Position numbers and translations under genes: made by a program. From a virus: a stretch of 31,560 nt of DNA. Every line of letters starts with the position of its first letter. Within the stretch, counting starts at the first letter, position 1. The notes under the pieces were generated by a model. It made no database searches. It had not been told where the DNA came from and worked only from the letters and a program-made list of their open reading frames with translations. Where the stretch lies: positions 1-31,560 of the IMG/VR virus record IMGVR_UViG_3300020416_000037; one strand, 5' to 3'. Shown piece by piece: positions 7,733-25,254 of the stretch.

Positions 7733-7757
7733 TGTGTAAATACTCAATCACCTCAAA

Positions 7758-7765
7758 TATTTATC
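7758..7765 (-). promoter_or_regulatory. Minus-strand late promoter box
   Basis: Read on the minus strand this is GATAAATA, 26 nt upstream of the ATG at 7732. It is the only late-type box I found that is oriented against the main direction, and it fits the only minus-strand gene. Confidence 0.65.
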
Positions 7766-7774
7766 TACTCACTT

Positions 7775-7782
7775 TATAAATA
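7775..7782 (+). promoter_or_regulatory. Late promoter box for the 7811 operon
   Basis: TATAAATA, the exact T4 late consensus, followed by CAACTAACAGG and ending 29 nt before the ATG at 7811. It lies 9 nt from the minus-strand box, so the two form a divergent pair. AGGAAAAG at 7791-7798 may act as a ribosome site. Confidence 0.75.
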
Positions 7783-7810
7783 CAACTAACAGGAAAAGCA
7801 TTATAGTTTA

Positions 7811-10800
7811 ATGTCATTACTTAGGGCCGATAAGATAACCAATAGGTTTAAGAATAGTGGCCCGATCATTGTTGGTCCTTCCTCCGTAACTGGTGATTTT
7901 ACGGTATCAGGAATTCTTACAGCATTAGGAATTGGTGTTACTAATGATGTTTTAATTGGTGGTGCTACAACCACAAAGTTTTTAACAGCTCAAAACTCAG
8001 CAAATCTTTTTAATACAACATTAACAGGTGTAACCACTGTTGGTGTAATTACTGGTGGTACATACTTTGGTAATGGTGTCAATTTAACGGGAATTGTTAC
8101 ATCAATTGCTGCTGGTGCTGGTGTTTTTATCTCTCCGGCTAGTGGTCAAGGAAGAGTAACAATTAATGCAAATAATGTAGCAGTTGCTGGTTTTGCAGTC
8201 ACAGCCGGTGTATCAACTAATCTGAAGGGTGGTGCCTCCGGTGTCATACCATATCAATCTGCCGTCAATACTACAGCATTTACTGGTGTAGGTAATACTG
8301 GAGAAATTCTTTTATCACAAGGAGCTAATACTCCTGTATGGACTTCACTCGCAGCGATTAATGTTTCTTTCGCTTCAAGTGCTGGTGTATCCACAAACTT
8401 AAAAGGTGGATCAGCAGGTAAGCTTCCAATTCAAACTGCACCCGATACCACTGGATTCCTTCCAGTTGGTGTCACAGGTAATATCCTGTTAGCACAGGGA
8501 ACTTCAAATCCAATCTATATTGATCCTAAGGCATCTTTGGATGTTCGTAGGGCACGGTTCGCAGGTATTGCTACCAATCTACAAAATGGTTTCATCTCCA
8601 ACGTAACTTCATTAGAAGTTGTTGGTGTCACCACATTAGGTGTAACCACAGCAAAGACGTTAGATGTCACTGGTATCACCACCACTGACCTTTTAAATGT
8701 TTCTACTGCTGCAACGATTACCAATCTGACCTTATCTACAGGTCCCGGTGTTGCAGTCACAGCCATTCTTGATGAGGATGACTTGGTATCTAACAGAGCA
8801 GATGCTCTGGTAACTCAACAATCAATCAAGGCATATGTTGATAGTCAAGTTACAGCACAAGACCTTGACGGTAATGCTGATAGTGGAACATTTGTAGTTG
8901 ATCTTGATAGTCAGGAGTTAGGTGTTCGTGGAACTTCTAACGAAGTCATCACTGTTGGTGCTGGACAAAGTGTTACTGTTGGACTTGATACCAACGTAAC
9001 TATTCCAAACAACCTAACAGTTACTACCAACTCACAAGTTAATGGTATCTCGTCGGTTGGTTCTGCCATTACAATGTATGGAGCGACTGGTATTGTCAGT
9101 GCCACTGCATTCTATGGTGACGGCACAAACCTTACCAACGTTCTTGGAATTGGTAATTCTGTTACTAATATCGTCTTTGTCAGTCCTGATGGTGATGACA
9201 CAAAAGATGGTCGTAGAGTATCAACAGCAAAGAGAACTGTTGGTTCTGCACTTACAATTGCCGAAGCAAGTACAGTTATTAGAATCTCTGCTGGTAACTA
9301 TTCAGAGAATAACCCACTCATTCTTCCTGAACAGGTAACTATTCTTGGTGATAGTTTGAGAGAAGTATCGCTGTCACCACAGAATGCTAATCAAGACTTC
9401 ATCTATGTTGCTAACGGAAGTTATGTTGAGAATATATCCTTCACCGGAACTTTGAATGAGGGTAAGGCAATCATTGCATTTAATCCCGATAAACCATCGT
9501 TTGTAACACAAGGCCCATACATTAGAAATTGTACTAACTTCATCACTAATAGTATTGGTATGAAGATTGATGGTGCTAGTGTAATCGGTCCTACAAGGGC
9601 GATGAACGTTGATAGTTACACTCAACTGAACCAGGGTGGTATTGGCGTTTCTATCTCTAATGAGGGTTATGCTCAGTTAGTTTCTATCTTCACCATCTAC
9701 AACGATCAGAGTATCATTTGTATCAATGGTGGTCAATGTGATCTGACCAACTCCAACTCTTCATTCGGTAGGTTTGGTCTGGTTGCTGATGGTATCGGTC
9801 CCACAAACTTTATCGGTACGATTACGACTGCAACTGCTGCAAATTCAGATGTATTCCCCATTGATTTAAGTACAGAGACACTTTCAATTGAAAACGCATT
9901 GTATGATGCTGCATCAGGTCTTACAACGATTACCACTTATAAGGCTCATGGTTATAATCAGGGTATGAGTGTTAATCTTGCAGGTCTTGGTTTCTCCTGC
10001 AGATCATATGACCACACTTTTGTAAGTGGTGTTAATAATGCAATCACCGATGGTAATGGTGTAAATTATACCGCACAAACCGGAACAACTTATAATCAGG
10101 ATACTGGAGCATTAGTTCTTGATGTCAATACGACTCATGGATTATCTGCTGCCACAGCATTAACGGCAACAACTGGTACTGGTTGGATTCCATCCACAGG
10201 TATTTTGACTGTTGTTACAACAGCTGCACATGGATTGACAACAAATGATTATGTTAAATTCGCGACAGAATCACTGACATTCTCTTGCACACAAGATGGT
10301 AATGCTACCAACCATGCATATCCCAGACAAACTGATCCCGTATTTAATAAGTGGATTCAGGTAACTGTAACTAATGCCACTACATTTACATGTAGTGTTG
10401 GTGTCTCAACAACCGGTGATTTTACACACACATTTGTTTCAGCAACTGCAGGTGGAGTTCTGAAGGCTAATGATACTGTCACCATTGCTGATAATGGTGT
10501 CACATTTACATGTGATAAGGACAACAATACTTCTAATCACTCTTATCCCAGACCTGGTGATCCAGCATCTGGTGCTACTCTTGGTATTGAAGCCGTCACA
10601 TCTGATACATTTACTGTTAATGTTGGTGCATCTAATATCTTTACCTTCCCATCCGGTAACTTTGGTAACATATTCACCGTTAGTGAAGTAGTTGGCATCA
10701 ATACATTTAAGACCTTTGTAGGATTCTCAACTCTGACTCATGTTTATAATAGCGGAGGAAACACCAATACATTTGTAACCAGACCTTATGACGGTCAGGT

Positions 10801-11455
10801 TGTTTATGTTGATAGTATTTTCAATTCGATCAATGGTGTTACGATTACGAACGGTGGAAGTGGTTACACAAGTCCCCCTGCAATTACATTCTCTGATCCA
10901 AGTGAATCATGGGGCATCAGGGCAACTGCAAACGCAGTATTGACGAATGGTGTAGTAACATCAGTGGATATGATTTCTAATGGTAGAGGATACACTGGAT
11001 CACCCACTGTGACTATCGCTGGTGCAGCTTCAGGCACCCCCAATCTCTTACCTACATACTATGTGGTCAGTAGTGCAACTCCGATTGTCGGTGGTATCTC
11101 TACTGTTACCTTTACTGAAAGGGTACCCTACGCAGTCGGTGTTGGATCAACAGTTCCATTCTTCAAACAGAGTAGAGTTCTTGCTTCAAGTCACGCCTTT
11201 GAATATATTGGATCTGGTAATACATTCCCTGATGCACTCCCTGCTCGTGGTGGTGTAGCAATCCCAGAAAATGAAATTGTGAATAAGAATGGGGGTTTGG
11301 TTATCTTCACTTCTACCGATCAAGCAGGTAACTTTAAAATTGGTGATGGTGTTGTTATTAATCAGTTAGAAGGTTCTATTTCTGGAGACGCATACAACAG
11401 AAGTTTGTTTGCAAACATCACACCTTACATTCTCGCACTAGGAGGGGGAGACTAA
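7811..11455 (+). CDS. Large beta-helix-like fibre/virion protein, paralogue of the first gene (1214 aa)
   Basis: A 1214-aa protein. It begins with a fibre-type N-terminus (MSLLRADKITNRF) and VTGDFTVSG stalk repeats. Two tandem repeats follow at about 131-180 and 190-238 (GVSTNLKGG...ILL(S/A)QG), with a partial third. Residues about 455-666 form a parallel beta-helix segment: FVSPDGDDTKDG, PEQVTILGDSLREVSLSP, then QLVSIFTIYNDQSIICI and DLTNSNSSFG. It mirrors the helix in the 50-4945 product. Two copies of a Cys/His motif (F-T/S-C ... H-x-YPR-x-x-DP) lie at about 825-845 and 897-917. GGSGYTSPP and GRGYTGSP repeats follow, then HAFEYIGSGNTFPDALP and GNFKIGDG near the C-terminus, also shared with the first gene. 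Likely a tail or fibre component; attachment site and receptor are unknown. It heads an operon with 11459 and 11810. Confidence 0.85.
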   Translation: MSLLRADKITNRFKNSGPIIVGPSSVTGDFTVSGILTALGIGVTNDVLIGGATTTKFLTAQNSANLFNTTLTGVTTVGVITGGTYFGNGVNLTGIVTSIAAGAGVFISPASGQGRVTINANNVAVAGFAVTAGVSTNLKGGASGVIPYQSAVNTTAFTGVGNTGEILLSQGANTPVWTSLAAINVSFASSAGVSTNLKGGSAGKLPIQTAPDTTGFLPVGVTGNILLAQGTSNPIYIDPKASLDVRRARFAGIATNLQNGFISNVTSLEVVGVTTLGVTTAKTLDVTGITTTDLLNVSTAATITNLTLSTGPGVAVTAILDEDDLVSNRADALVTQQSIKAYVDSQVTAQDLDGNADSGTFVVDLDSQELGVRGTSNEVITVGAGQSVTVGLDTNVTIPNNLTVTTNSQVNGISSVGSAITMYGATGIVSATAFYGDGTNLTNVLGIGNSVTNIVFVSPDGDDTKDGRRVSTAKRTVGSALTIAEASTVIRISAGNYSENNPLILPEQVTILGDSLREVSLSPQNANQDFIYVANGSYVENISFTGTLNEGKAIIAFNPDKPSFVTQGPYIRNCTNFITNSIGMKIDGASVIGPTRAMNVDSYTQLNQGGIGVSISNEGYAQLVSIFTIYNDQSIICINGGQCDLTNSNSSFGRFGLVADGIGPTNFIGTITTATAANSDVFPIDLSTETLSIENALYDAASGLTTITTYKAHGYNQGMSVNLAGLGFSCRSYDHTFVSGVNNAITDGNGVNYTAQTGTTYNQDTGALVLDVNTTHGLSAATALTATTGTGWIPSTGILTVVTTAAHGLTTNDYVKFATESLTFSCTQDGNATNHAYPRQTDPVFNKWIQVTVTNATTFTCSVGVSTTGDFTHTFVSATAGGVLKANDTVTIADNGVTFTCDKDNNTSNHSYPRPGDPASGATLGIEAVTSDTFTVNVGASNIFTFPSGNFGNIFTVSEVVGINTFKTFVGFSTLTHVYNSGGNTNTFVTRPYDGQVVYVDSIFNSINGVTITNGGSGYTSPPAITFSDPSESWGIRATANAVLTNGVVTSVDMISNGRGYTGSPTVTIAGAASGTPNLLPTYYVVSSATPIVGGISTVTFTERVPYAVGVGSTVPFFKQSRVLASSHAFEYIGSGNTFPDALPARGGVAIPENEIVNKNGGLVIFTSTDQAGNFKIGDGVVINQLEGSISGDAYNRSLFANITPYILALGGGD
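8205..8525 (+). repeat. Tandem ~58-codon repeat in the 7811 gene
   Basis: Two units begin at about 8205 and 8382 with GVSTNLKGG and continue through a Thr-rich strand to ILLSQG or ILLAQG. A truncated third, AGIATNLQNG, begins at about 8562. They are recognisable at protein level and partly diverged in DNA. Confidence 0.7.
11441..11450 (+). promoter_or_regulatory. Strong ribosome binding site for the 11459 gene
   Basis: GGAGGGGGAG lies inside the last codons of the 7811 gene, 8 nt before the ATG at 11459. There is no late promoter in this gap, so the small gene is probably translated from the upstream transcript. Confidence 0.7.
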
Positions 11456-11458
11456 AAA

Positions 11459-11803
11459 ATGCCACTAGCTTTAAACAATTATCAAACTATTACGGGTGTT
11501 GTAGGAACTAATACAGTCGGTATCTACACAGCACCAACTGGGTACAGTGCTATTGTTCTATTGGCACAAGCCACCAACATTGGAAGTAATACACAGACAA
11601 TTAATTTTTTACACGAAAGAACAGTCGCAGGTGTTGCAGTAACTACAGAAATTCTTTTGGGATTTCCTGTTCCTGCGAATGATGCTGCAAATCTTCTTGC
11701 AGGAAAACTTGTTCTTGAAACTGGTGACTCACTTAAAATAGGATCAAGTAGTAATACTGATGTGAAATTTATTTCATCTGTTTTAGAGACACTTAATCAG
11801 TAA
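11459..11803 (+). CDS. Small beta-rich virion-associated protein (114 aa)
   Basis: A 114-aa protein without cysteine, signal peptide or membrane segment, made of short alternating strands: NTVGIYTAPTGYSAIVLLAQ, TQTINFLHE, GFPVPAND, GKLVLETGDSLKIGSS, FISSVLETL. The second half matches the C-terminal half of the 13752 product in order and spacing (IVLLAQATN versus ILVGGTFAN; GFPVPAND versus NIPIPQGSS; GKLVLETGDSL versus GKTILRPNEVI), so the two are paralogues. I associate this pattern with small T4-like cyanophage structural proteins, but I cannot assign a role. It starts 3 nt after the previous stop, behind a strong ribosome site. It could be a fibre cap, connector or chaperone. Confidence 0.75.
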   Translation: MPLALNNYQTITGVVGTNTVGIYTAPTGYSAIVLLAQATNIGSNTQTINFLHERTVAGVAVTTEILLGFPVPANDAANLLAGKLVLETGDSLKIGSSSNTDVKFISSVLETLNQ

Positions 11804-11809
11804 TAAACA

Positions 11810-13726
11810 ATGGCAAGATTCGCTAGCAACGACCGTATAAATCTAAAAGTTGGTGTAAGTTCACATAGCGAACAACTTACATCACTGGAAGTAGTTGGTC
11901 GTGTTGGTATAAACTCTACCACATCAGAGAATGCACTAGACATTGTTGGTAATGCCAATGTAGATGGGAATATAAGTGTATCTGGGTTGTCAACCTTTAC
12001 TGGTATTGTTACCACTGGTGGTGACCTGTATGTTGGCGGTGACCTATATGTAAAAGATGATTTAGTATATGACGAAGTAACGGGTAGAAATATTAATATC
12101 AGTGGTGTAGCAACCATTGGTCAAACACTAGATGTCAATGGTAATCTAGATGTAGATGGTCACACAGAACTTGATAATTTAAATGTAACTGGTGTTTCTA
12201 CATTTACAGGTTCTATACATCTTCCTGATAGTTCTGGAGATGCCGTTGGTAGAATATTATTTGGTGATGGTGATGATTTAAAAATCTATCATGACGGCAA
12301 TTCTTATATAGAGAACACTAATGCAGCATCAAATCTTTTCATAAACAGTGCTCTAGGATTACAACTTAGAGTAAACAGTAGTGAAGCAGCACTTGCGGCG
12401 ACAGCTAATGGTACGGTTGAAATTTACCATGATGGTGTTGAAAAACTTGAAACCACTGGTTTTGGTGTTACTGTCTTTGGAACTACACAAACTCAACAGT
12501 TAAATGTAACCGGTGTTTCTACATTTGCTGGTAATATAAACGCAAATGGAAATCTTGTTGGTGATAACTCCACAAATATTTCTGGTATCAACTCTGTTAC
12601 TGCAGTAACATACTTTGGTGATGGTTCACAACTTACCGGTTCTGGTGGTGGTACCCTTATTCAAGGTATCTCTATCGAAGAAGAGGGGACGAATGTTGGC
12701 ACAGCTGGGTCAATCAAAACCATCAACTTCAAAGGTGCAAAGGTAACTGCTGCTTCAGTTAATGCCACTAAAGTTGATGTTACAGTTAATACTGGTCTTA
12801 ATACAGCAGGAACATCTGGTTTCAATAATCTATTTGTAACTGGTGTATCTACATTTGCAGGTAATATCAACGCGAATGGAAATGTTATTGGTGATAGTGC
12901 TACAAATATTTCTGGTATTAATTCAGTAACTGCAACAACATTCTTTGGTGATGGTTCTAATCTTTCTAACACTGGTGCAGTTTTAAGTGCCGCATCTGGA
13001 ATTCAAAGACTGGTTGCTACTAGTCTAACTACGGGTGTTCTGACCGCTGCTGGAACTGACGCGGACTTGACATTTAATGCAACAACTAACCTATTAAGTG
13101 CTGGTAAATTATCGATTGCAGGTATTTCTACATTAGCTGATGTTAATTCATCTGGTGTCATCACGGCAACAAGCTTTAGTGGAAGTGGTACAAATTTGTC
13201 AGGCATTGTTACTTCGCTAGTAGCAGGGGCCAATATTTCGATAAGTGGTGCTACCGGCCAAGTCACTATCGCTGGTCTTGCCAATACTGCTAATGTAACA
13301 GCCAATACCTTGACTGTATCAGGGTTCTCAACATTTGCAAGTGCGTCTTTTAGTGGTAATGTTTCAATTGCAGGAACACTTACTTATGAAGATGTCACCA
13401 ATATTGATTCTGTTGGTGTCATCACTGCAAGAGCTGGAATTAGAATCGGAACAGGTGGTACAGTCGGACCTGTAGGATCTGGTATTGTAACATACTTTGG
13501 TGATGGTTCACAACTAAGTGGAGTTCAAGGTGGTAAATGGGAAGAAACTGATGTAGGTATCAATACATCTTCAAATGTTGGTATCGGTACTACAAATCCC
13601 ATTCACAAACTAGAAGTTATTGGTGACACTAACCTAACTGGTAATCTAAATGTAACAGGAATTACTACCATAAATGGAAATAGTGTTCCATCCATCGGAA
13701 TGGTAATTGCCCTCAGTGGTTTCTAA
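11810..13726 (+). CDS. Repeat-rich tail fibre-like protein (638 aa)
   Basis: A 638-aa fibre-stalk protein. The N-terminus MARFASNDRINLKVGVSS differs from the MSxI type of neighbouring fibres. Many triple-strand stalk repeats follow (VTGVSTFTGSI, NGNLDVDGHTELDNL), then DLKIYHDGNSYIENT at about 157, a duplicated block (about 228-277 and 341-384) ending GDGSQLTG or GDGSNLSN, and late in the protein GTLTYEDVTNIDSVGVIT and TGGTVGPVGSGIVTYFGD. It ends KLEVIG...SVPSIGMVIALSGF. That last segment resembles the first strand of a tail-collar domain that goes no further, so there is no obvious globular head. It may be a stalk that binds another protein. It starts 6 nt after the preceding stop without a clear ribosome site. 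A 59-bp block near 13454 is almost identical to one in the 18315 gene. Confidence 0.85.
   Translation: MARFASNDRINLKVGVSSHSEQLTSLEVVGRVGINSTTSENALDIVGNANVDGNISVSGLSTFTGIVTTGGDLYVGGDLYVKDDLVYDEVTGRNINISGVATIGQTLDVNGNLDVDGHTELDNLNVTGVSTFTGSIHLPDSSGDAVGRILFGDGDDLKIYHDGNSYIENTNAASNLFINSALGLQLRVNSSEAALAATANGTVEIYHDGVEKLETTGFGVTVFGTTQTQQLNVTGVSTFAGNINANGNLVGDNSTNISGINSVTAVTYFGDGSQLTGSGGGTLIQGISIEEEGTNVGTAGSIKTINFKGAKVTAASVNATKVDVTVNTGLNTAGTSGFNNLFVTGVSTFAGNINANGNVIGDSATNISGINSVTATTFFGDGSNLSNTGAVLSAASGIQRLVATSLTTGVLTAAGTDADLTFNATTNLLSAGKLSIAGISTLADVNSSGVITATSFSGSGTNLSGIVTSLVAGANISISGATGQVTIAGLANTANVTANTLTVSGFSTFASASFSGNVSIAGTLTYEDVTNIDSVGVITARAGIRIGTGGTVGPVGSGIVTYFGDGSQLSGVQGGKWEETDVGINTSSNVGIGTTNPIHKLEVIGDTNLTGNLNVTGITTINGNSVPSIGMVIALSGF
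12497..12960 (+). repeat. Imperfect direct duplication within the 11810 gene
   Basis: About 130-140 bp at 12497-12640 recurs at 12832-12960. Both encode the series VTGVSTFAGNINANGN...TNISGINSVTA...FFGDGS, with mostly synonymous differences. Confidence 0.75.
13454..13512 (+). repeat. 59-bp block shared with 18714-18772
   Basis: The stretch encodes the end of TGGTVGPVGSGIVTYFGDGS. It differs at one base from the copy in the 18315 gene, in the same frame and orientation. Codon choice is conserved throughout, which points to recent recombination rather than protein constraint alone. Confidence 0.8.
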
Positions 13727-13732
13727 TAAATA
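13725..13732 (+). promoter_or_regulatory. Late promoter box (extended type)
   Basis: AATAAATA starts inside the TAA stop of the 11810 gene and continues as ACTAAAAAG. It ends 20 nt before the ATG at 13752. It is the first of five sites with the identical core ATAAATAACTAAAAA. Confidence 0.75.
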
Positions 13733-13751
13733 ACTAAAAAGTACTAATACA

Positions 13752-14279
13752 ATGGCGGAGTCATTTACAAATTCACTGACAAGGGCTGCGGGTATTGTAA
13801 CCTCAAGTAATTCAGGGTCTATTGGTATTACCACTTCCCTCATTACCGGAATCTCAACCAATGGGGTTTCAGTTGGTGATATGGTAAAAACAACATTCTT
13901 TAGGGGTGGGTCAAAAGTTTCTGTGATTGGAGTAGGTCAAGTAAATCTTGACAGAACATCTACCAATACCACTACAAAGACTGGTCAAACTGTTACATTT
14001 ATGGGTAAGACCACTGCTTTTACAGCAACCGAAAAATCAATCTTGGTTGGTGGAACTTTCGCAAATCTGACTGATAATACGATTAATGTGAATGTAGAGG
14101 TTGGAATCGGAAATACTTTTGCTCTTATCGCAAACAATATTCCTATCCCTCAAGGTAGTTCGTTCGTTATCAGTGACGCTGGTAAAACAATCTTAAGACC
14201 GAATGAAGTAATTAATTTGTATTGTGATACAGCCACATCTGTGGATTCTAGTTTGAGTATTCTTAGTGGGGTTCAATAA
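13752..14279 (+). CDS. Virion-associated protein with beta-rich C-terminal domain (175 aa)
   Basis: A 175-aa protein. The first half has strands including GSIGITTSLITGISTNGVS and a basic segment KTTFFRGGSK. The second half (about 95-175) matches the 11459 product: KSILVGGTFANLTDNTINV, NNIPIPQGSSFVISDAG, KTILRPNEVINLYCDT, SILSGVQ. This is a second copy of that small domain carrying an N-terminal extension. It heads a two-gene unit, and its stop overlaps the next start by one base (TAATG), which implies translational coupling with 14279. Its role is unknown; the context suggests a structural or assembly partner of a fibre. Confidence 0.75.
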   Translation: MAESFTNSLTRAAGIVTSSNSGSIGITTSLITGISTNGVSVGDMVKTTFFRGGSKVSVIGVGQVNLDRTSTNTTTKTGQTVTFMGKTTAFTATEKSILVGGTFANLTDNTINVNVEVGIGNTFALIANNIPIPQGSSFVISDAGKTILRPNEVINLYCDTATSVDSSLSILSGVQ

Positions 14280-14926
14280 TGGGTCTTGGTAATAACGGAT
14301 ATATTGGAAGATCTCCTGGAGATTCTTCTGTAATTGTAAGAAGACAGGTATATCAACCAACCGGTGTTCAAACTTCATTTACATTTGAATCTGGTTATGA
14401 CAACAATTTCTTTGATGTCTTTATTAATGGTGCGAAGCAGATTAAGTCCATTGACTTCACTGCGGTAGATAATACAACATTCTCTTTAACATCACCAGCA
14501 CAAAATGGTGATGTTATTGAGGCTGTCGCTTATAAAGCTTTCAATGCCACAAATAGTGGTGTGGGTATTCAATCTGCCGGGGTACGGATTGGTGAACCTT
14601 CAACTCTAAATTTTATTGGTGCAGGAAATACATTTAAAGTTAGGGAAGCTGGTGAGGTTATTGATATCTCCATTCAAGGTGGTGGAGGAGGTGGTGGTGT
14701 TGGAACTGCCATTAATTATGAAAACGGAGATTCAAGCCCATTTAGTTTCATTAATGCAACAGCATTCGTAAATCAAAATATTGTTTTAGATACAACAACT
14801 GCTGGTGCAGATAATTCATACGTTGTCGTCCAGGAACCCCGACTGATTGTTTCAGTTGGTGCTGCCGTTACTGTGGGACTTGGAAAAACTATGGTAACTG
14901 ATCTATATCAACTTGGTGATCTCTAA
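14279..14926 (+). CDS. Fibre accessory/tip-like protein with glycine hinge (215 aa)
   Basis: A 215-aa protein. Residues about 22-92 form a beta domain common in phage fibres: GVQTSFTFESGYDNNFFDVF, INGAKQIKSIDFTA, GDVIEAVAYKAF. Residues about 105-135 hold LNFIGAGNTFKV and ISIQGG, then a run of seven glycines as a flexible hinge. The C-terminal part (NIVLDTTTAGADNSYVVVQE ... GAAVTVGLGKTMV) lines up with the C-terminus of the 23044 product (YTLSNGRSAMSVGPVTLNAG), so the two proteins are paralogues with different lengths. It starts at ATG 14279, overlapping the stop of 13752. It is probably a short fibre or distal cap. No enzymatic motif is seen. Confidence 0.75.
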   Translation: MGLGNNGYIGRSPGDSSVIVRRQVYQPTGVQTSFTFESGYDNNFFDVFINGAKQIKSIDFTAVDNTTFSLTSPAQNGDVIEAVAYKAFNATNSGVGIQSAGVRIGEPSTLNFIGAGNTFKVREAGEVIDISIQGGGGGGGVGTAINYENGDSSPFSFINATAFVNQNIVLDTTTAGADNSYVVVQEPRLIVSVGAAVTVGLGKTMVTDLYQLGDL

Positions 14927-16911: not shown

Positions 16912-18294
16912 ATGTCAAGAATAAGAGCAGATCAGATATTAAATGGTGCTGGTACCGGTGCTCCTAACTTTTCATTAGGACTTCAGGTAGGTGCTGCTAC
17001 CACTATCCATACAACAGGTATTGACCTTGGAAGTGGTAATATTCAATCACATAATATAAATTCAACTGGTATTATTACTGCTGCTTCTGGATCTTTTAGT
17101 GGTAATGTTTCTGTTGGTGGAACATTAACATATGAAGACGTTACAAGTATAGATTCGGTTGGTATTATAACTGCTCAATCTGGTATTCATGTTACTGGTG
17201 GTGATGTTGGTATCAATACAACTTCAAATAATGATGGCGCACATTTTCAACATTATCAATCTGAAGTAAGACATCAAAGTTTCCAAAGTACTAATGGTGA
17301 TTTATCAATTGTTACAGATAATAATAGTAATCCAGCTGTATACATCAAAGGAACAGGAAATGCAGATTTAGTAAATGTATTTGATAATACTACTGAAGTT
17401 TTTACAATAAAAGATGGTGGTAATGTTGCTATCGGAACTGATAATCCCTCATCAGTCATTTTTACTGTAAGAGGAGATAATAATACTACATTTACTAATA
17501 ATCCAGCTAGCATGCTTATAGCGGGTAATGATTCAGCGACTTCGGGTAGCTCTGGTGCCGGTATATTCTTTGGAGGAAGATATCTCGATGGTCAAGATAC
17601 TACAACGACATTTGCAGCTATCAGTGGTATTAAGGAAACAACATCAGATAATGAATATGGCGGTGCTTTAGTTTTTGGTACTAGAGCTGCTGGTTCTGGT
17701 GGTGGAAGTTTTGAAAGAATGCGTATAGATTCTAATGGTTATATGACAAAGGCACCATCGGGAATGGTAATAAGAAGTGGTTTTTATGATCCAGGAACCG
17801 GAACTAATGCAACAACAGCGACCACTTCCGCGACATTTACAACCCTTAATATTAATGGAACGGGTCAAGTAGGACATAATATAGGTAAATTCAGTGATGA
17901 CGGACTCACATATACTAAAGTAAGTTCTAATAGTCATCTGAATATTAGTGTATCTATACCTTTTTATCTTGCCGTGGGTGGTACAGGTTTTGGTATTAGA
18001 GCTCTGTTGAGTACAGATAATGGAAGTAATTATTATACAGTAACTGGATTAAGCAATGGACCCGCTGACAAATGGGGTGCAGCTGGTTACGGTGGTAACA
18101 CATCTGGTATAGTAAATTATACTTGGAATACAAGAATGAATTCTTCTCGGGCATCAGCAATACTTGCAAAAACAGGAACTATTAGATTCTATTTTGAGGT
18201 GGCTGTTTGGTCTAGTTCCGATACATTAACAATTGGTGATTATCCTAGTTATAACAAAAAATCTTCAATTATAGTACAAGAAATTGCTGAATAA
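16912..18294 (+). CDS. Tail fibre-like adhesin with beta-sandwich head (460 aa)
   Basis: A 460-aa fibre. MSRIRADQILNGAGTGAPNF is a typical cyanophage fibre N-terminus. A stalk follows with GTLTYEDVTSIDSVGIITAQ (about 70-90) and VGINTTSN, then EVFTIKDGGNVAIGTDNPSS and SFERMRIDSNGYM (about 265-280). The last 180 residues lack these repeats and look like one globular beta domain: MVIRSGFYDPG, SNSHLNISVSIPFYLA, GIRALLSTDNGSNYYTV, TIRFYFEVAVWSS, SIIVQEIAE. The layout resembles the C-terminal domain of the 23494 product. By position it is the receptor-binding head. No specific fold can be fixed by eye. It starts 17 nt after a late promoter box and has no clear ribosome site. Confidence 0.85.
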   Translation: MSRIRADQILNGAGTGAPNFSLGLQVGAATTIHTTGIDLGSGNIQSHNINSTGIITAASGSFSGNVSVGGTLTYEDVTSIDSVGIITAQSGIHVTGGDVGINTTSNNDGAHFQHYQSEVRHQSFQSTNGDLSIVTDNNSNPAVYIKGTGNADLVNVFDNTTEVFTIKDGGNVAIGTDNPSSVIFTVRGDNNTTFTNNPASMLIAGNDSATSGSSGAGIFFGGRYLDGQDTTTTFAAISGIKETTSDNEYGGALVFGTRAAGSGGGSFERMRIDSNGYMTKAPSGMVIRSGFYDPGTGTNATTATTSATFTTLNINGTGQVGHNIGKFSDDGLTYTKVSSNSHLNISVSIPFYLAVGGTGFGIRALLSTDNGSNYYTVTGLSNGPADKWGAAGYGGNTSGIVNYTWNTRMNSSRASAILAKTGTIRFYFEVAVWSSSDTLTIGDYPSYNKKSSIIVQEIAE

Positions 18295-18297
18295 ATA
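18290..18297 (+). promoter_or_regulatory. Late promoter box (extended type)
   Basis: AATAAATA includes the TAA stop (18292-18294) of the 16912 gene and continues ACTAAAAAAG. It ends 18 nt before the ATG at 18315. Confidence 0.75.
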
Positions 18298-18314: not shown

Positions 18315-19091
18315 ATGTCGAAGATACAAGTAAATGAGATAGTCAATCACTTTGATAATGGTGCTCCCGACTGCCCCAAAGGTTTTACGGTATCTTCTGG
18401 TATTTCGACATTTACCGGTTCAATTGATGCAAATGGTAGTTTAGATGTAGATGGTCATACAAATTTAGATAACGTTAATATATCTGGTGTTGTCACTGCT
18501 ACTAGTTTTGTTGGAAACGTTACTGGTAATGTTACGGGAAATGCTGATTCAGCAACTAATGCACAAGGTCTTACTGGTTCTCCAAGTATTTCTGTTGCAA
18601 GTCTTGTCGCAACTGGTAATGTAACTATTGGTGGAACACTTACATATGATGATGTAACAAACGTAGATGTAATTGGAATATTAACAGCAAGAGGTGGAAT
18701 AAAAATTGGTACGGGTGGTACAGTCGGACCTGTAGGATCTGGTATTGTCACATACTTTGGTGATGGTTCACAGTTAACTGGTATTGATGCAACTCAAATT
18801 CAAACTGGTAATACTAGTGTCCAGACTATAGATACTGGGTCTGATGGGCACGTTAAGGTTAATACTGAAGGTAGTGAAAGACTTCGTATAACCTCAACTG
18901 GTTTAATTGATGCATCTTCAAATACAACTGCTATAGCACTACCACAAGGAACCACAGCACAAAGACCGTCTGGTTCGGCACCATACATAAGGAAGAATAC
19001 CACCAATAATGCGTTGGAATATTTTGATGGGACATCATGGGTAGAGATAATCACGGATTATTTCCCCACTGGTTCTACTATTTTAGGTTGA
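18315..19091 (+). CDS. Short tail fibre-like stalk protein (258 aa)
   Basis: A 258-aa protein starting MSKIQVNEIVNHFDNGAPD. It has stalk repeats SLDVDGHTNLDNVNISG, GNVTGNVTGNADSATNAQG, GTLTYDDVTNVDVIGILTA and TGGTVGPVGSGIVTYFGDGS, then ERLRITSTGLID (about 189-200). Its C-terminal segment, QGTTAQRPSGSAPYIRKN then ALEYFDGTSWVEI, is a common phage fibre ending. It stops at YFPTGSTILG, which recalls the start of a collar domain and goes no further. With no large head of its own, it may act as the stalk for the product of the next gene, whose ribosome site overlaps its stop codon. A 59-bp segment is almost identical to part of the 11810 gene. Confidence 0.85.
   Translation: MSKIQVNEIVNHFDNGAPDCPKGFTVSSGISTFTGSIDANGSLDVDGHTNLDNVNISGVVTATSFVGNVTGNVTGNADSATNAQGLTGSPSISVASLVATGNVTIGGTLTYDDVTNVDVIGILTARGGIKIGTGGTVGPVGSGIVTYFGDGSQLTGIDATQIQTGNTSVQTIDTGSDGHVKVNTEGSERLRITSTGLIDASSNTTAIALPQGTTAQRPSGSAPYIRKNTTNNALEYFDGTSWVEIITDYFPTGSTILG
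18714..18772 (+). repeat. 59-bp block shared with 13454-13512
   Basis: The copy in the 18315 gene. One base differs (gtCacat here, gtAacat in the other copy). Sequence on either side diverges quickly. Confidence 0.8.
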
Positions 19092-19097
19092 GGTAAG
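19090..19097 (+). promoter_or_regulatory. Ribosome binding site overlapping the upstream stop
   Basis: GAGGTAAG shares its first two bases with the TGA stop (19089-19091) of the 18315 gene and lies 5 nt before the ATG at 19103. No late promoter is present, so the two genes are probably transcribed and translated together. Confidence 0.65.
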
Positions 19098-19102
19098 AAA
19101 TA

Positions 19103-22100
19103 ATGGCAAACGAAGTATTTACAAGAACTCCTACAAGTGTAGGTAACAGAAAAAAATTCACCTGGGCAGGTTGGATAAAAAGAAATGATATAAATGCAAG
19201 TGGTGCAAATTCCTATCAAGGAATTTTTGCTGTCGGTACTTCTGATGGTTCAGAAGATACCTTTATGTTCTCTTCTGATCGAATCAGATTACGTTGCGAA
19301 AGTGGATCAGACATAACAACAATTGAGGAATTTAGAGACCCTGGAAATTGGATGCATGTGATGATGGTCGTAGATACCACAGTATATGATGCAGATCGTA
19401 GATGTGTTTTTTATATGAATGGAAGAAGATCAGACTGGATGTCTCAAGAAGATAACATTACTCAAAACGCAGACTTAAGAATTAATAGTGTTGACAAACA
19501 TTATTTGGGAGAATTTCCCAGAATTAATGAACATTTAGATGGTCAAATATGTGATGTATTCCTCGTAGATGGTCAGGCACTTGGTCCAGATGTGTTTGGT
19601 TTCTATAAAGATGGAGACGGTTATATTTCTTCTGGAACTGCAAAAGCAACTGATTTCCGTCCTGGTCAGTGGATGCCACATTCACCATCAAAGATCAAAA
19701 AGGATATCAATCGTAGGGGTGGATTTGGAGTTAATGGATTCTATCTTCCTATGAATGATAGTTCCAATCCTGGTGCTGACTTCCATATGACTCCTAATAG
19801 TATTATTAAACTGAAAGGAGAAGACTTACCACAACCACGCAACGGTGCTCCTACAACTTCTGATTCTTATGTCAGTCAGTTGAGGACACAGACAGGTGAA
19901 TTGTTTAATGATGGGGTCGTTAATTTTGGTGGAGCCGGTGATAGAAATGCATTGCAAGATAGTGGTAATGGAGTCAATTTAGGAACTGGTGAATTTACTG
20001 TAGAAGCTTTTGTTTATCATTCTATTCTTCCGCAAAATTCTCTGCAGTATATCTTCATGACCACAGCTCAAGGTAATCCTAATGCATTTGCATTTGCTGT
20101 TGAAAATGATCGTATTGTTGCTGGGTCACATGCCGGTAGCTTCTCAAACTCCACAAAAGTAGAAGCAACATTTCCTGTAGGAAGTCTTAAAACAGGTCAG
20201 TGGTATCATTATGCTGCTTGTAGAAGTGGAAATACACTCCGTCTGTTTATTGATGGAAAAATGATGGTGGAGGATACTTCACACACGGAAAATTATAATA
20301 ACACCAGTGCTTTTGGGTGTAGAGTTGGATCCGAGGCAGGGGATGGTGCTAGTAGTGCAGGATTTAAATCTATCAAGGGATTTATGTCAAACGTTCGTGT
20401 TGTAAATGGAACCGCTCTTTATACCTCAAACTTTACACCACCAACATCCGCTCTTACTGCAGTAACCAATACTATTCTTCTTTGTTGTCAGTCTCCAACA
20501 TCAGTGACTGCTGCTGCTGTATCACCTGGTACATTATCACTTCTAACTCATTCAGGTGATATGCCAGCAGCCGCTGCTAGAAATGAATTAGATGCTTCTA
20601 TTGTTCTTGCTATTCCTGGTATTAGTGGTGGTCAGGTTACTGGGATTGGTGATTACTCTGCTGATATCCGAGGTAATGGAACTAATAAAAATATTTCTGC
20701 AAATGGAAATGCTGGTGTTGGTGCGACTGGAATATATTATGGAAGTGCTTTAAATCTTGATGTAAGTAATGATAATCTTGTTATTGCTAACGACTCAAAC
20801 GGAAGTATCTCTACGGATTTTAGTTTTGGATCTAGTGATTTTACAGTAGAGTATTGGCAATATAATACAAGTTTTTCAGGAACTCCTGGACATGGTATAT
20901 GGGATAGTCCAAATAATCAAAGATCTTGGTTAATCTATAATAATAGTTCATCAAAACCAAGATATTATGTGTCGGTCGATGGAGTTGCTAGTGTTAATAT
21001 AAATTCAGATGAAACTGTTCCAACTGATCAATGGAATCATTATTGTATGGAAAGAGTTGGTTCAACTTTATTTGGCTATCTAAATGGTAGATGTGTCGGA
21101 CAAAATAGTAATTTGGGAACACAATCGCTATTTACTCCAGTTGATTACCTAAAAATTGGAACTTGGGGTGATTCATCATTCTCTGTAAAAGGATTTGTAC
21201 AAGACTTTCGTATCTATAAAGGTGTAGCAAAATACAAGGGTGGTTTTGATGTTCCCAAACCTTATACACCAGTAGGTATTGAAGCATTTAGAACAGTTGC
21301 TGATACTTGTAAGAATAACTTTTGTACTTGGAATTCAATATCTCCTACATTTAGTGGGAGTAATGCAGTATTTTCTAATGGAAATCTGACTACTTCTGAA
21401 GCAACCTCAAACGTAGCTCAAGGCACTGGAACAATTGGTCCATCATCAGGTAAGTGGTATTATGAAGCAAGAGCAGAAAATGTAACTGGTAGTACTCATT
21501 TGATTGGAATACGAGCAGCAGAATGGAATAATGCTAATACTCAAAATAGTTTAGCATATAGAAGTAATGGTGCTGTATATAATTATAGTACTGCTGCTAC
21601 TAGTCAAGCATCCTACACTACTGGTGATATCATAGGTATTGCATTTGATGCTACTAATGGAAGATTATGGTTCTCTAAAAATGGAGTTTGGACTACTGGA
21701 ACAAACCCTTCAGCAGGGTCGGGACAAAATGTTAATTACACACCTTCTGCAACCACTGCATTTTTTGCCTTCGATAATGTATCAGGAACTCAATTATGGG
21801 ATGCAAATTTCGGTCAAAACCCATCATTCTGTGGCAGAATTACAGCAGGAACAAATGCAGATGATAGTGGCAAGGGACTGTTTAAGTATGCCCCTCCAAC
21901 TGGTTTCCTAGCATTATGTGAGGATAACTTACCTGCTCCTGTAATTGCTGACCCTGGTAAGCACTTTAAGACCGTACTTTATACTGGCACTAACACTAAC
22001 AGATCTGTTACTGGTGTTGGATTCAAACCTGGTTTTGTTTGGACAAAAGAGCGTAATGGTACTGAAGTGCCTGCATTTTACGATGAAGTTCGCAAACCAC

Positions 22101-23020
22101 CAAATGTGCTTTATTCTTCCGAAACAAATTCGGAGGAAAATAATTCTGGATATCTTTATTCATTTGATGATGACGGATTTACAGTTGGTACTGCTGATTT
22201 AAGTAATAATGCTGGTGGTGAATACGTCGCATGGTGTTGGAAAGCAGGTGGTGCAGCAGTACCAAACACTGAAGGTAGTATCACAGCACAGGTGAGTGCC
22301 AATCAGACAGCAGGATTTTCTATTGCCAAATGGACTGGCACAGGAGCAAATGGTACAATCGGTCATGGATTGAGTACGGCACCAGAAATAATGTTCGTCA
22401 AGGGGTTAGATAACACAGATCATTGGTTTGTTTATAGTAGTTCTTTAACAACATCACAATATCTTTACTTAAATCTAACTTCCACGATAGCTTCTGGAGC
22501 AAATGCTTGGAACAGTACAGCTCCAACTAATAGCGTATTTTCAATCGGAGATGATGGTGGTGTAAATGGATCTTCAAATGATTACATTGCTTATTGTTGG
22601 CATGGTGTAGAAGGTTTCAGTAAGTTTGGAACCTTTGAAGGAAGTGATAATGCTGATGGTGCTTTTGTGTACTTGGGATTCAAACCAGCACTAGTCATAG
22701 CCAAGAATATACAAACTGCATATACTGTTGGTGGCTCTGTTGCTACAAGTTGGGGTATGTGGGATTCTTCTAGAATGCCAAATAATCCTGCAGGAAATCC
22801 ACTCTGGGCAAATTTTAACAGCACTGAAACTACTAGAGGTAACGGATCGAGTGCAAACACAGGAGGAGAAGATGGTAATGGTCTAGGTGGATTCCTAATG
22901 TGTGATCTATTATCAAATGGATTTAAGGCAAGATCTGCCGGAAGTGAATTTAATTCTCCAGGAACAAATATCTACATGGCATGGGCAGAATCACCATTCC
23001 AGACTGCAAACGCCAAGTGA
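19103..23020 (+). CDS. Multidomain LamG/SPRY lectin-like adhesin (1305 aa)
   Basis: A 1305-aa mosaic with no stalk repeats. Residues about 1-165 are a first concanavalin/LamG-like domain (KKFTWAGWIKRNDI, GNWMHVMMVVD, RCVFYMNGRR, HLDGQICDVFLVDGQ). About 290-447 are a second (TGEFTVEAFVYHS, GQWYHYAACRSGNTLRLFID, GFMSNVRVVNGTALY). About 576-720 are a third (SDFTVEYWQYN, DQWNHYCMERVGSTLFGYLN, KGFVQDFRIYKGVAKY). About 783-903 resemble a SPRY domain (SGKWYYEARAEN, GDIIGIAFDATNGRLWFSKN, FGQNPSFCGRI). About 954-1305 are a C-terminal region met in marine phages (GFKPGFVWTKER, GEYVAWCWKAGG, GTIGHGLSTAPEIMFVK, DYIAYCWHGVEG). LamG and SPRY folds bind sugars or proteins, so host-surface recognition is likely. 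Translation appears coupled to the short stalk gene at 18315. Domain edges are approximate, and ligand and metal sites were not resolved. Confidence 0.85.
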   Translation: MANEVFTRTPTSVGNRKKFTWAGWIKRNDINASGANSYQGIFAVGTSDGSEDTFMFSSDRIRLRCESGSDITTIEEFRDPGNWMHVMMVVDTTVYDADRRCVFYMNGRRSDWMSQEDNITQNADLRINSVDKHYLGEFPRINEHLDGQICDVFLVDGQALGPDVFGFYKDGDGYISSGTAKATDFRPGQWMPHSPSKIKKDINRRGGFGVNGFYLPMNDSSNPGADFHMTPNSIIKLKGEDLPQPRNGAPTTSDSYVSQLRTQTGELFNDGVVNFGGAGDRNALQDSGNGVNLGTGEFTVEAFVYHSILPQNSLQYIFMTTAQGNPNAFAFAVENDRIVAGSHAGSFSNSTKVEATFPVGSLKTGQWYHYAACRSGNTLRLFIDGKMMVEDTSHTENYNNTSAFGCRVGSEAGDGASSAGFKSIKGFMSNVRVVNGTALYTSNFTPPTSALTAVTNTILLCCQSPTSVTAAAVSPGTLSLLTHSGDMPAAAARNELDASIVLAIPGISGGQVTGIGDYSADIRGNGTNKNISANGNAGVGATGIYYGSALNLDVSNDNLVIANDSNGSISTDFSFGSSDFTVEYWQYNTSFSGTPGHGIWDSPNNQRSWLIYNNSSSKPRYYVSVDGVASVNINSDETVPTDQWNHYCMERVGSTLFGYLNGRCVGQNSNLGTQSLFTPVDYLKIGTWGDSSFSVKGFVQDFRIYKGVAKYKGGFDVPKPYTPVGIEAFRTVADTCKNNFCTWNSISPTFSGSNAVFSNGNLTTSEATSNVAQGTGTIGPSSGKWYYEARAENVTGSTHLIGIRAAEWNNANTQNSLAYRSNGAVYNYSTAATSQASYTTGDIIGIAFDATNGRLWFSKNGVWTTGTNPSAGSGQNVNYTPSATTAFFAFDNVSGTQLWDANFGQNPSFCGRITAGTNADDSGKGLFKYAPPTGFLALCEDNLPAPVIADPGKHFKTVLYTGTNTNRSVTGVGFKPGFVWTKERNGTEVPAFYDEVRKPPNVLYSSETNSEENNSGYLYSFDDDGFTVGTADLSNNAGGEYVAWCWKAGGAAVPNTEGSITAQVSANQTAGFSIAKWTGTGANGTIGHGLSTAPEIMFVKGLDNTDHWFVYSSSLTTSQYLYLNLTSTIASGANAWNSTAPTNSVFSIGDDGGVNGSSNDYIAYCWHGVEGFSKFGTFEGSDNADGAFVYLGFKPALVIAKNIQTAYTVGGSVATSWGMWDSSRMPNNPAGNPLWANFNSTETTRGNGSSANTGGEDGNGLGGFLMCDLLSNGFKARSAGSEFNSPGTNIYMAWAESPFQTANAK

Positions 23021-23026
23021 TAAATA
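23019..23026 (+). promoter_or_regulatory. Late promoter box (extended type)
   Basis: GATAAATA starts inside the TGA stop (23018-23020) of the LamG/SPRY gene and continues ACTAAAAAGG. It ends 18 nt before the ATG at 23044. Confidence 0.75.
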
Positions 23027-23043: not shown

Positions 23044-23484
23044 ATGGCGATTGGAAATCCCATTACTAGTGAAAATAATTTTAGGATAAACAAGTTTGGT
23101 CCACATCAAGGACAAACTCTGTTCACAATTAATAATGGGTACCAAATAGGTAAAATTTCTGTCTTCAGAAATGGTGTTCGACTCACAGACGGTATTGATT
23201 TTACCGCTTCTGATGGTTCTACTGTCACGTTTAATACTGGCTGTAATCTCGGTGATGATATAGTTATTGAAGTTCTTGACACGTTCAGTGTTGCTAATGT
23301 TTCTGGAAGTGGTGGTGGGGCCACTGGAAGTAGTGGAGATGAAGTATTTCATGAAAATGAACAAGTGGTGACAGCAAATTATACGTTAAGTAATGGTAGA
23401 AGTGCTATGAGTGTTGGTCCTGTGACTTTGAACGCAGGAGTGGTAGTTACCATCCCTGCAAATCGAAGATGGGTAGTTCTCTAG
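23044..23484 (+). CDS. Small fibre accessory/tip-like protein (146 aa)
   Basis: A 146-aa protein and paralogue of the 14279 product. Residues about 15-80 form the fibre beta domain (GQTLFTINNGYQIGKISVFR, NGVRLTDGIDFTASDGSTV, GDDIVIEVLDTF). A Gly/Ser hinge follows (about 86-98), then a C-terminal segment NEQVVTANYTLSNGRSAMSV, GPVTLNAGVVVTIPANRRWV. That ending (NAMS-GP-IT... TIPSG-WV in my memory of the family) is common in marine phage fibres and may form a small beta-helical cap. It is the first gene of a unit with the 23494 fibre, 9 nt downstream. Confidence 0.75.
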   Translation: MAIGNPITSENNFRINKFGPHQGQTLFTINNGYQIGKISVFRNGVRLTDGIDFTASDGSTVTFNTGCNLGDDIVIEVLDTFSVANVSGSGGGATGSSGDEVFHENEQVVTANYTLSNGRSAMSVGPVTLNAGVVVTIPANRRWVVL

Positions 23485-23487
23485 GAG
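23483..23487 (+). promoter_or_regulatory. Ribosome binding site for the 23494 gene
   Basis: AGGAG overlaps the last base of the TAG stop of the 23044 gene region and lies 6 nt before the ATG at 23494. The 9-nt gap has no promoter, so the two genes share a transcript. Confidence 0.6.
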
Positions 23488-23493
23488 TAAGTC

Positions 23494-25254
23494 ATGGCAG
23501 TCTCAATTTCTGGTGAAGGTGTCATCAGTGGTAGTAGTAATTATTCCTTCGACTCAAAAGTATCGGTTGGTGGTACTCTGACTTATGAAGATGTAACCAG
23601 TGTTGACTCAGTTGGTATTATAACTGCACAATCTGGTATTCGTGTTACTGGTGGGACGGTTGGTATTGGAACTGATGATCCAGGTAGTCACAAACTTCAT
23701 TTGTATGGAGCATCAAACTCTGACATAAGAATGACTGCTACTGGTGATGATATTATCAATATATTTGCAAATTCTAATAGAAGTTCTGCCAATGATGTTA
23801 TTTTTGCGATAAAAGGAGAATGGAATGGAACACAAGTAGCAAATATAAAAATTAATGCTGGAGATGATACAACTAATAAAGATGATGGGTATATTACATT
23901 TAATACTAGAGAAAGTGGTGCTGGATCAAGCACAGAAAGAATTCGTATAACTTCTGCTGGTAAAGTTGGCGTCAATGAAACTGCTCCAGCAGCAGATTTG
24001 GTTGTTAAACAGTCGGGAAATACATTTACAACTCAATCACAAACAGTTGCTTTATTCCAAAGAAGTTCTACGGCAGGACACGGAGTAAAGATTGCAATTG
24101 TAGCAGGAACTGGAGGTTCTTCAGACATCAATTTTGGCGATACTGATGACGAGGATATTGGTATTATTCAGTATTTCCATACCGACAACTCTTTAAGAAT
24201 TACTGCTAATGCATCAGAAAGACTTCGTATAAACTCGAATGGAACAACACAATTTACACCTGAAGGAAGCACTAGTAATCCGTATCTCTTAATTGATACC
24301 AGTGGTGATAATGCTAGATTTAATGCTGCTAAATCATCTGGTAACTGTGGATTAATATTCGTAACTCAAAATTCAGGAACTGCAACCGAAAGACTTCGTA
24401 TAACTTATGATGGTAAATTTGGATTTAAAACTACTTCTCCCGACTATACAGTAGATATCAACGGGGAATTGGGAATTACTGAAGGTCAACCAGTTACTTG
24501 GCACGATGGTTCTGGCAATGCTGCTGCTCAGATTTATGGAGATTCCAGTAGTAACTTGATATTCAGGACTGGAGTTGCTGCTATGGGAGAACGGATGCGT
24601 ATAACTCCTGGTGGTGATAGTTACTTCACTGGTAATGTTGGTATTAATAAAGCTGCTCCAACACAAGCACTTGATGTTGTCGGAAGAATTATAAAAACAG
24701 AATATGAACCTGGTGAATTGATTGAATGTCTTGAGACAATTGCAAATGGTATACAATGCACTCTTTCTTCTGGATCATATACCCCAACTAATGTAACTGC
24801 AACTCAAGATCTTACATCTTCCTATGCAGATATAAATGGTTCAGTATTTACTTACAATGTTCCTGCAGGAACTAAGAGACTTGTTTATGACTTCTTCGTT
24901 TTCATGAAGGACAAGGATGTTGGACCACTTTTACACTTTAGGGGTTTAACAACTGCTGATGGTAGTAGTACATATGCTGTAGTAAATGACTCTAGATCTA
25001 CCTGGAGAGGTGCAACTGCGAGTGCCGACTACCAGCATTGGATACACAATAGAATGGTTCTCTTTGATAATTCAAGTGAGGATTTAAATGATGGTTTACT
25101 TAATTCTCTTGGTGGCACTACAAGAAAAATTAAATTTCAATGCAGAGAATATAGTGGGTCGTATGAAGGGCAGTTGCATACCACAAACAATTATGACGGA
25201 GCTGGAACTGACATTTTGGTTCGTCCTCATATCAGAATTTCTGCTTATGCGTAA
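23494..25254 (+). CDS. Tail fibre-like adhesin with globular C-terminal head (586 aa)
   Basis: A 586-aa fibre. The N-terminus MAVSISGEGVISGSSNYSFD differs from the MSxI type. The stalk has GTLTYEDVTSVDSVGIITAQ at about 28-48 and VGIGTDDPGSHKLHL. Four ERLRI-type strands mark its sections: ERIRITSAGKVGVN (about 148), ERLRINSNGTTQF (about 242), ERLRITYDGKFGF (about 299) and ERMRITPGGDSYF (about 366). Residues about 395-586 are a repeat-free domain with SGSYTPTNVTATQDL, GTKRLVYDFFVFMKD, HWIHNRMVLFD, RKIKFQCREYSGSYEG and a last strand VRPHIRISAYA. Its outline resembles the head of the 16912 product. This is a probable receptor-binding domain. It is translated with the 23044 tip-like protein, so the two may assemble together. 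Confidence 0.85.
   Translation: MAVSISGEGVISGSSNYSFDSKVSVGGTLTYEDVTSVDSVGIITAQSGIRVTGGTVGIGTDDPGSHKLHLYGASNSDIRMTATGDDIINIFANSNRSSANDVIFAIKGEWNGTQVANIKINAGDDTTNKDDGYITFNTRESGAGSSTERIRITSAGKVGVNETAPAADLVVKQSGNTFTTQSQTVALFQRSSTAGHGVKIAIVAGTGGSSDINFGDTDDEDIGIIQYFHTDNSLRITANASERLRINSNGTTQFTPEGSTSNPYLLIDTSGDNARFNAAKSSGNCGLIFVTQNSGTATERLRITYDGKFGFKTTSPDYTVDINGELGITEGQPVTWHDGSGNAAAQIYGDSSSNLIFRTGVAAMGERMRITPGGDSYFTGNVGINKAAPTQALDVVGRIIKTEYEPGELIECLETIANGIQCTLSSGSYTPTNVTATQDLTSSYADINGSVFTYNVPAGTKRLVYDFFVFMKDKDVGPLLHFRGLTTADGSSTYAVVNDSRSTWRGATASADYQHWIHNRMVLFDNSSEDLNDGLLNSLGGTTRKIKFQCREYSGSYEGQLHTTNNYDGAGTDILVRPHIRISAYA

Follow-up and report, generated by a model that had tools for sequence, protein, structure and literature searches.

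A conserved C-terminal end as a proposed joint between a stalk protein and the multi-lectin protein of the next gene: a candidate two-chain tail fibre of a T4-like marine phage

Two adjacent genes of a viral DNA of 31,560 nucleotides (nt) (IMG/VR record IMGVR_UViG_3300020416_000037, this entire stretch being called the window in the following) probably encode the two chains of one tail fibre or adhesin of a T4-like marine phage, a reading to which we assign, on the basis of sequence comparisons, a probability of roughly 0.7. The upstream gene (18315..19091, + strand; genes are named by their first position) codes for a protein of 258 amino acids (aa) which would be part of the fibre and whose last 17 residues (WVEIITDYFPTGSTILG, encoded by 19038..19088, + strand) would serve as a docking tag. 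The downstream gene (19103..23020, + strand) starts with ATG and codes for a multi-lectin head of 1305 aa which would have no anchor of its own. We propose that the first laminin-G-like domain of this head, LamG1, together with the N-terminal 16 residues and the extension behind it, acts mainly as a coupler receiving the tag, while the variable LamG2, LamG3, SPRY and DUF7483 domains would face the host. From these data we infer physical docking of the two chains, a position of the head at the fibre tip and binding to the surface of a host which is probably cyanobacterial.

A conspicuous linkage between the tag and LamG-first genes is observed across related viruses. A scan of viral contigs by means of the end of the upstream partner (pattern W[VI]E[ILV][IF][TS]DY) yielded 59 matches, 54 of which, on 54 contigs, were confirmed. 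In all 51 loci with a complete partner end the protein terminates exactly 17 residues past the start of the motif, and the next gene, 1-15 nt downstream, is LamG-first. The remaining three loci comprise two which start at a contig end (L101, L102) and one (L054) which carries a stop codon inside the adaptor. This natural in-frame stop is located at about position 6110 of L054, and both the tag and the LamG-first gene are intact downstream of it in the DNA. The 48 partners with a complete start vary in length from 60 to 952 aa. Exactly 60 aa are found in 19 of them (a further, 20th partner of this type is cut by its contig end), and the 29 long partners fall into 14 groups according to their N-terminus. 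Hence, only the end of the partner is constant, and since 60 aa are too short for a stalk, the head is tied to the last 17 residues and not to the stalk. The sequence-only reading of the window had suggested a split adhesin with the stalk provided by one gene and the multi-lectin head by the other. The comparison of relatives strongly supports this idea, with the correction that the 17-residue end appears to be the element tied to the head. Independent occurrence of the two genes was encountered in no complete locus of the window's type except for the second head of a tandem.

A reverse search via LamG1, which is independent of the tag, covered 79 loci in which open reading frames (ORFs) with a LamG1 score of at least 40 bits were counted. 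The tag is present directly upstream of 51 of the 54 LamG-first ORFs, including two with the variant end EYFPEGSGIFG and one (L109) departing from the first pattern, and upstream of none of the 26 ORFs in which LamG lies behind a longer N-terminus. The three untagged LamG-first ORFs are the second tandem head of L141, the ORF of L122, which is the same contig as L054, and that of L101 at a contig end. The tandem (L006, positions 6001-14383, identical to L141) consists of LamG-first heads of 1215 and 1569 aa behind a single tagged adaptor of 119 aa. A third layout (L037, L016, L026, L046 and similar loci) is found in other phages, where the head, with its longer N-terminus, brings a first LamG strand of its own (SLRFN-like) and the upstream protein ends in a different module. 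Two contigs (L124 + L130 and L126 + L129) each harbour two adaptor-head pairs bearing different tags, SDYFPTGSVILG and SEYFPEGSGIFG, and are a natural test of pair specificity.

The same arrangement is found in complete isolate genomes. In S-SRM01, RN05-S, RB11-B and S-B05 a partner of 202-272 aa is followed, after exactly 11 nt, by the head gene, and in ACG-2014e and ACG-2014i a 60-aa partner, itself situated behind a protein of 1,373 or 1,396 aa, lies 6 nt before the head gene. Nine complete isolate genomes were searched as a whole. Six of them contain both the tag and LamG1, S-B43, P-TIM68 and S-CAM4 contain neither. In S-CAM4 an adaptor core of 48 aa, located behind a structural protein of 1,370 aa, ends without the tag, and the gene following it is not LamG-first; it begins with a core-like module of its own and carries LamG in cis. 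P-TIM68 (L036), a match to the stalk, was considered as a fusion and rejected since no LamG1 match is present in its whole genome. These genomes bear on an alternative which we regard as unlikely, according to which the 19103 protein needs no partner to attach to the virion, be it to the capsid, the baseplate or another fibre, with 18315 being a mere neighbour in the operon. Its best-matching family, PHROG 19943, is indeed filed under "head and packaging, virion structural protein", and the second tandem head of L141 manages without a tag directly upstream. A neighbour without a role in the head, however, should vary in its last 17 residues as it does in length and N-terminus instead of keeping them near-invariant; moreover, tag and LamG1 are absent together from three complete genomes, and the tag is missing where, as in S-CAM4, the next gene is not LamG-first.

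The consensus of the tag, WVExxxDYxPxGSxxLG, is the constant element of the upstream protein, rather than the stalk. Of the residues that the search pattern did not prescribe, P, G and S occur in all 51 sequences and the last two residues, L and G, in 49 of them, amid synonymous codon variation. The residues being fixed despite synonymous changes, the tag is conserved as protein. This bears directly on the very improbable alternative that the conserved end is a nucleic-acid feature, i.e. a recombination joint or a translational coupling signal, instead of a protein docking tag. Such a feature would accord with the Shine-Dalgarno-like site which extends over the stop codon in many loci (TGAGG at the stop of the stalk gene in 30 of 51 relatives), with the last codon being GGT in 48 of the 51 tag proteins and with the recombination of domains on both sides. 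It does not accord with the variation of third codon positions in a stretch which begins as far as 51 nt before the stop, nor with the many 60-aa partners which keep the residues although they have TGA TAA ATG and no Shine-Dalgarno-like site, nor with the pelagiphage group, whose protein end is similarly fixed yet different.

In the window the genes 18315 and 19103 are separated by 11 nt. A Shine-Dalgarno-like GAGGT (19090..19094, + strand) spans the boundary between the TGA stop codon of the stalk gene and this gap. The sequence-only reading had described 19103 as translationally coupled to 18315. The close spacing is confirmed and an overlap is absent; since gaps as small as 11 nt are common across the window, coupling itself is no more than plausible. 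More informative is the distribution of ATAAATA, which we take to be the late-promoter core of T4-like phages. The + strand of the window contains 14 copies and the - strand one; the longer ATAAATAA occurs nine times, a number reached by one of 100 shuffles. Thirteen of the 18 genes of the window have the core within 60 nt upstream, among them 18315, which it precedes by 24 nt (18291..18297, + strand). No core is present upstream of 19103, and the next one (23020..23026, + strand), which precedes gene 23044, closes the unit. This distribution makes both genes look like one late bicistron. The related loci conform to this layout. ATAAATA is present within 100 nt upstream of none of 51 head genes (random 100-nt windows: 3.0%) and within 60 nt upstream of 35 of the 48 partners with a complete start (random 60-nt windows: 1.8%). 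It also occurs just behind the head gene, the last 8 bases of the gene included, in 22 of 41 complete heads.

The 18315 protein is composed of an N-terminal stalk with repeats, a core module and the C-terminal tag. It matches the tail fibre families phrog_30742 and phrog_6942 and contains no Pfam domain above cut-off. A regular-expression search of the 18 ORFs of the window located all three stalk motifs, each once, in 18315, one or two of them in 11810, 14952, 16912, 23494, 25308, 27646 and 29854, and none of the three in 19103. These results agree with the earlier description of 18315 as a short stalk protein without a head and of 19103 as devoid of stalk repeats. The adaptor core module (GTTAQRP...IRxNTT...YxGTxW; 18879..19037, + strand), delineated by alignment of relatives, is generic as it also occurs elsewhere without the tag in several complete genomes. 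It resembles the C-terminus of PDB 9d83 chain D, Gp49 (E 0.0076).

Five domains, three of them LamG-like and one SPRY-like, had been predicted for the 19103 protein, and Pfam matches as well as predicted folds bear this out, with DUF7483 as the fifth. Three Laminin_G_3 stretches (PF13385) reach 101.8 bits (curated cut-off 27.6) and SPRY (PF00622) 31.7 bits (curated cut-off 26.3), while the C-terminal DUF7483 (PF24299) scores 344.8 bits (cut-off 27, E 6e-103) and covers its profile in full (positions 1-330 of 330). The families 3keto-disac_hyd and Laminin_G_2 match below their curated cut-offs. LamG1 including its conserved C-terminal extension, the proposed docking domain, occupies residues 1-200 (19103..19702) and is followed by a conserved linker of low model confidence (residues 201-263; 19703..19891). 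Further downstream on the + strand lie LamG2 (residues 274-448; 19922..20446), which is optional among relatives, LamG3 (residues 500-722; 20600..21268), identified by Pfam, PHROG and comparison of relatives, SPRY (residues 735-930; 21305..21892) and DUF7483 (residues 950-1298; 21950..22996). This composition is difficult to reconcile with the even less probable alternative that the 19103 protein acts as a chaperone in the folding of the 18315 fibre, or caps it transiently, and does not stay in the virion. Such a role has a model in T4 gp38, described in excerpts of PMC12892980 as a chaperone of gp37 which is released after assembly, and for Alteromonas phages fibres with cognate chaperones are reported (PMC10579305, PMC7289586). 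A chain of 1305 aa whose LamG, SPRY and DUF7483 domains recombine like receptor-binding modules, however, hardly suits a chaperone. In addition, virion structural as well as tail fibre families are among its PHROG matches, and a lectin-domain protein of the pelagiphage Skadi, encoded in a hypervariable region, is called structural in an excerpt of PMC10504331.

The head has clearly undergone recombination at the level of domains. Among the relatives compared, with L049 left out as the same phage, the closest one to the 19103 protein is L051 for LamG1 (82.5% identity), L084/L085 for LamG2 (83.8%), L066 for LamG3 (63.6%), L072 for SPRY (80.1%) and L051 again for DUF7483 (60.8%; L053 60.2%). In LamG2 the identity to L051 amounts to only 38%. 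The term mosaic used in the sequence-only reading is thus literally true. LamG1, linker, LamG3, SPRY and DUF7483 make up 24 of 41 complete heads, and 15 of 41 additionally contain LamG2. A second LamG3-like domain is present in the head of L052, the head of L094 (ACG-2014i) is a LamG1 protein of 391 aa which is followed by a Peptidase_S74 fibre, and many heads contain further stretches without an assigned domain between the named ones. Within the proposed docking region the mean majority frequency is 0.86 for residues 1-16 (19103..19150), which we propose to form half of the docking site, 0.80-0.84 for residues 157-262 (0.84 for the linker, residues 200-262) and 0.41 for the LamG core. Stalks and head domains may be exchangeable by recombination with assembly being retained since tag and LamG1 are proposed to constitute a constant joint. 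As a separate observation, the highest distance correlation overall is that of LamG1 with DUF7483 (rho 0.47, 36 non-redundant heads), the two domains being situated at opposite ends of the head; in the window both are closest to L051.

To describe the joint in structural terms we refer to predicted models, the confidence of which is given as predicted local distance difference test score (pLDDT). The model of LamG1, built from 44 sequences, has a mean pLDDT of 65, with mostly 69-91 for residues 11-160 and below 50 for residues 1-8 of this isolated domain. Its fold matches pentraxin, CBM40 and laminin-G chains, serum amyloid P (SAP) being the best one (Z 14.8, root-mean-square deviation (rmsd) 2.8, 148 aligned residues). 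The model of SPRY and DUF7483 has a mean pLDDT of 80.9. Its SPRY part matches real SPRY domains, among them that of DDX1 (Z 19.8, rmsd 2.2, 166 aligned residues). The DUF7483 part is mostly confident and mostly beta; no fold stood out for it among the matches of the SPRY-DUF7483 model, which say nothing about DUF7483 as the SPRY part fills the lists. The first predicted strand of LamG1 comprises residues 18-27. Residue 5 of the model aligns with residue 19 of SAP (1sac) and of C-reactive protein (CRP; 1lj7), and residue 1 with residue 12 of CRP (1gnh). According to this alignment about 11-14 N-terminal residues of SAP and CRP lack a counterpart in LamG1, a reading limited by the low confidence of the N-terminus. 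The modelled alignment is compatible with a missing first strand but does not prove it.

A tentative and rather doubtful extension of the two-chain reading is that the gene boundary cuts the LamG fold, the tag (GSxxLG, or GGxQFN in pelagiphages) providing the first strand of LamG1 and completing the fold in trans. If true, this strand donation would lock stalk and head together and would represent a universal joint letting ocean phages swap stalks and heads freely. A profile of 32 LamG domains possessing their own first strand was used to score the joined tag and LamG1 of each pair, with 100 shuffled and 100 unrelated ends as controls. When all 46 pairs were taken together, a score as high as that of the real end was reached in 53% of cases by shuffled and in 70% by unrelated ends. 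For the 43 pairs of the window's type the real end did not on average outscore the controls (L090 came out best, with 6% and 9%). The three pelagiphage pairs alone leaned towards strand donation (6-18%). Strand donation would fit the anatomy of both groups, yet it found no support in the sequence test for the group of the window. The tag visually resembles the first strand of LamG3 (YGSA[LM]xF, 23 of 46 segments), a likeness seen by eye only and not used as support.

A related arrangement is found in pelagiphages. There, the LamG gene is preceded by a gene whose product has the end GGGQFN or a similar one (46 of 74 GGGQFN, 24 of 74 GGAQFN). Among 81 partner ORFs of this type, located in the best 80 of 481 loci found, a LamG gene comes next in 74 cases. 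The remaining seven lie at contig ends, five of them stopping within 11-129 nt of the end and two running off it. In Skadi-1 the GGGQFN-type partner is the annotated tail fibre, and HTVC103P harbours two such partner-LamG pairs. A fused form was sought and found once, in a locus of pelagiphage-like layout (L009) where core module, TIG, Ig, LamG and DUF7483 are united in one ORF, the LamG being detected by our own profile and not by Pfam. No fused form of the window's own type is present in the loci scanned.

Several known systems invite comparison. In T-even phages the genes 37 and 38 are adjacent. The likeness to the gp37-gp38 pair of T-even phages and S16, where fibre protein and tip adhesin are separate chains, is one of organisation only. 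The 19103 head shares the gp38-type layout, lying directly behind a fibre gene, 11 nt apart and in one promoter unit. Unlike gp38, the 19103 protein shows no match to a gp38 family among the five Pfam families matching at E up to 1 and no glycine-rich stretch or polyglycine type II sandwich signature (11.5% Gly, no GGG run, at most 9 Gly per 30 residues); the head here is a LamG/SPRY/DUF7483 chain of 1305 aa, and the proposed coupler consists of a 17-residue tag and a LamG domain. According to excerpts of PMC12892980, the N-terminus of T2 gp38 interacts with gp37, and gp38 of PP01 worked with T2 gp37 only after its N-terminal 113 residues had been exchanged for the T2 ones. A two-protein lateral tail fibre, LtfA and LtfB (gp108 and gp107), one of which is attached through the other, is described for DT57C (excerpts of PMC10713586; PMC4728585); LtfA donates beta strands to LtfC (excerpt of PMC10713586). 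This fibre is branched and belongs to a T5-like siphovirus, however, and its strand donation takes place at the fibre-tail junction and not at a head. The tailspike of Schitovirus B2 is likewise encoded by two genes, the products of which, gp48 and gp49, were co-purified and solved by cryo-electron microscopy (excerpt of PMC11654681). From name and size (410 aa, 44 kDa) we infer that PDB 9d83, whose chain "Gp49" ends in a module like the adaptor core, is this complex, although neither a LamG head nor a tag is seen in the 9d83 match. In Skadi-type pelagiphages two genes come after the annotated tail fibre ending in GGGQFN, first a LamG-first one with SPRY and then one for DUF7483; the tag is a different one, the head is split over two ORFs and the genome is small. 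The excerpt of the Skadi paper (PMC10504331) describes a hypervariable region with two ORFs, of which one encodes the structural lectin-domain protein and the other is uncharacterised. Searches of open-licence literature returned no paper with "DUF7483" and, among the top matches listed on phage LamG or lectin fibres and donor strands, no title or start of an abstract on such a joint.

A number of points weigh against the assignment of both proteins to one fibre. Adjacent genes of a late operon need not form a complex, and the pairing is known here from sequences. The constancy of W, E, D and Y in the tag arises partly by construction as these residues were part of the search pattern, and the five of the 59 matches dropped at confirmation are outside the counts. 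The searches via tag and via LamG1 share many contigs and are in this respect not independent, the 51 pairs reduce to 43 after dereplication, and the linkage counts do not represent independent events since all of them come from gene families that share their ancestry. The selection of the nine complete genomes was not random, as each of them was taken for its match to one of the proteins. The second tandem head of L141 has no tag directly upstream, and in L054 the adaptor frame stops ahead of the tag. In pelagiphages the gap varies, with a 1-nt overlap in 49 of 74 pairs and 79 nt in 13 of 74. Ultimately, the co-variation of adaptor end and LamG1 is weak and explicable by genome closeness alone, the distance correlation over 36 non-redundant loci out of 40 amounting to rho 0.27 as compared to 0.14-0.18 for the other head domains.

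Elsewhere in the window the gene pairs 23044/23494 (23044-25254) and 13752/14279 (13752-14926) each have a second gene without ATAAATA within 120 nt and are possible additional two-chain fibres. The fibre-like protein encoded by 25308-27623 matches the Pfam domain Peptidase_G2 (IMC autoproteolytic cleavage) over residues 545-738.

The observed pairing bears on the exchange of receptor-binding heads among abundant marine phages. The same two-gene arrangement recurs in many related ocean viruses with differing stalks and heads, and a fixed 17-residue end which predicts the next gene provides a concrete, testable joint. Such a constant joint would explain the recombination of heads with assembly being retained. 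The tag could serve to pair up many "hypothetical" proteins of fibre regions, and the observed arrangement suggests a place for DUF7483 proteins in the tip of fibres made of two or three chains.

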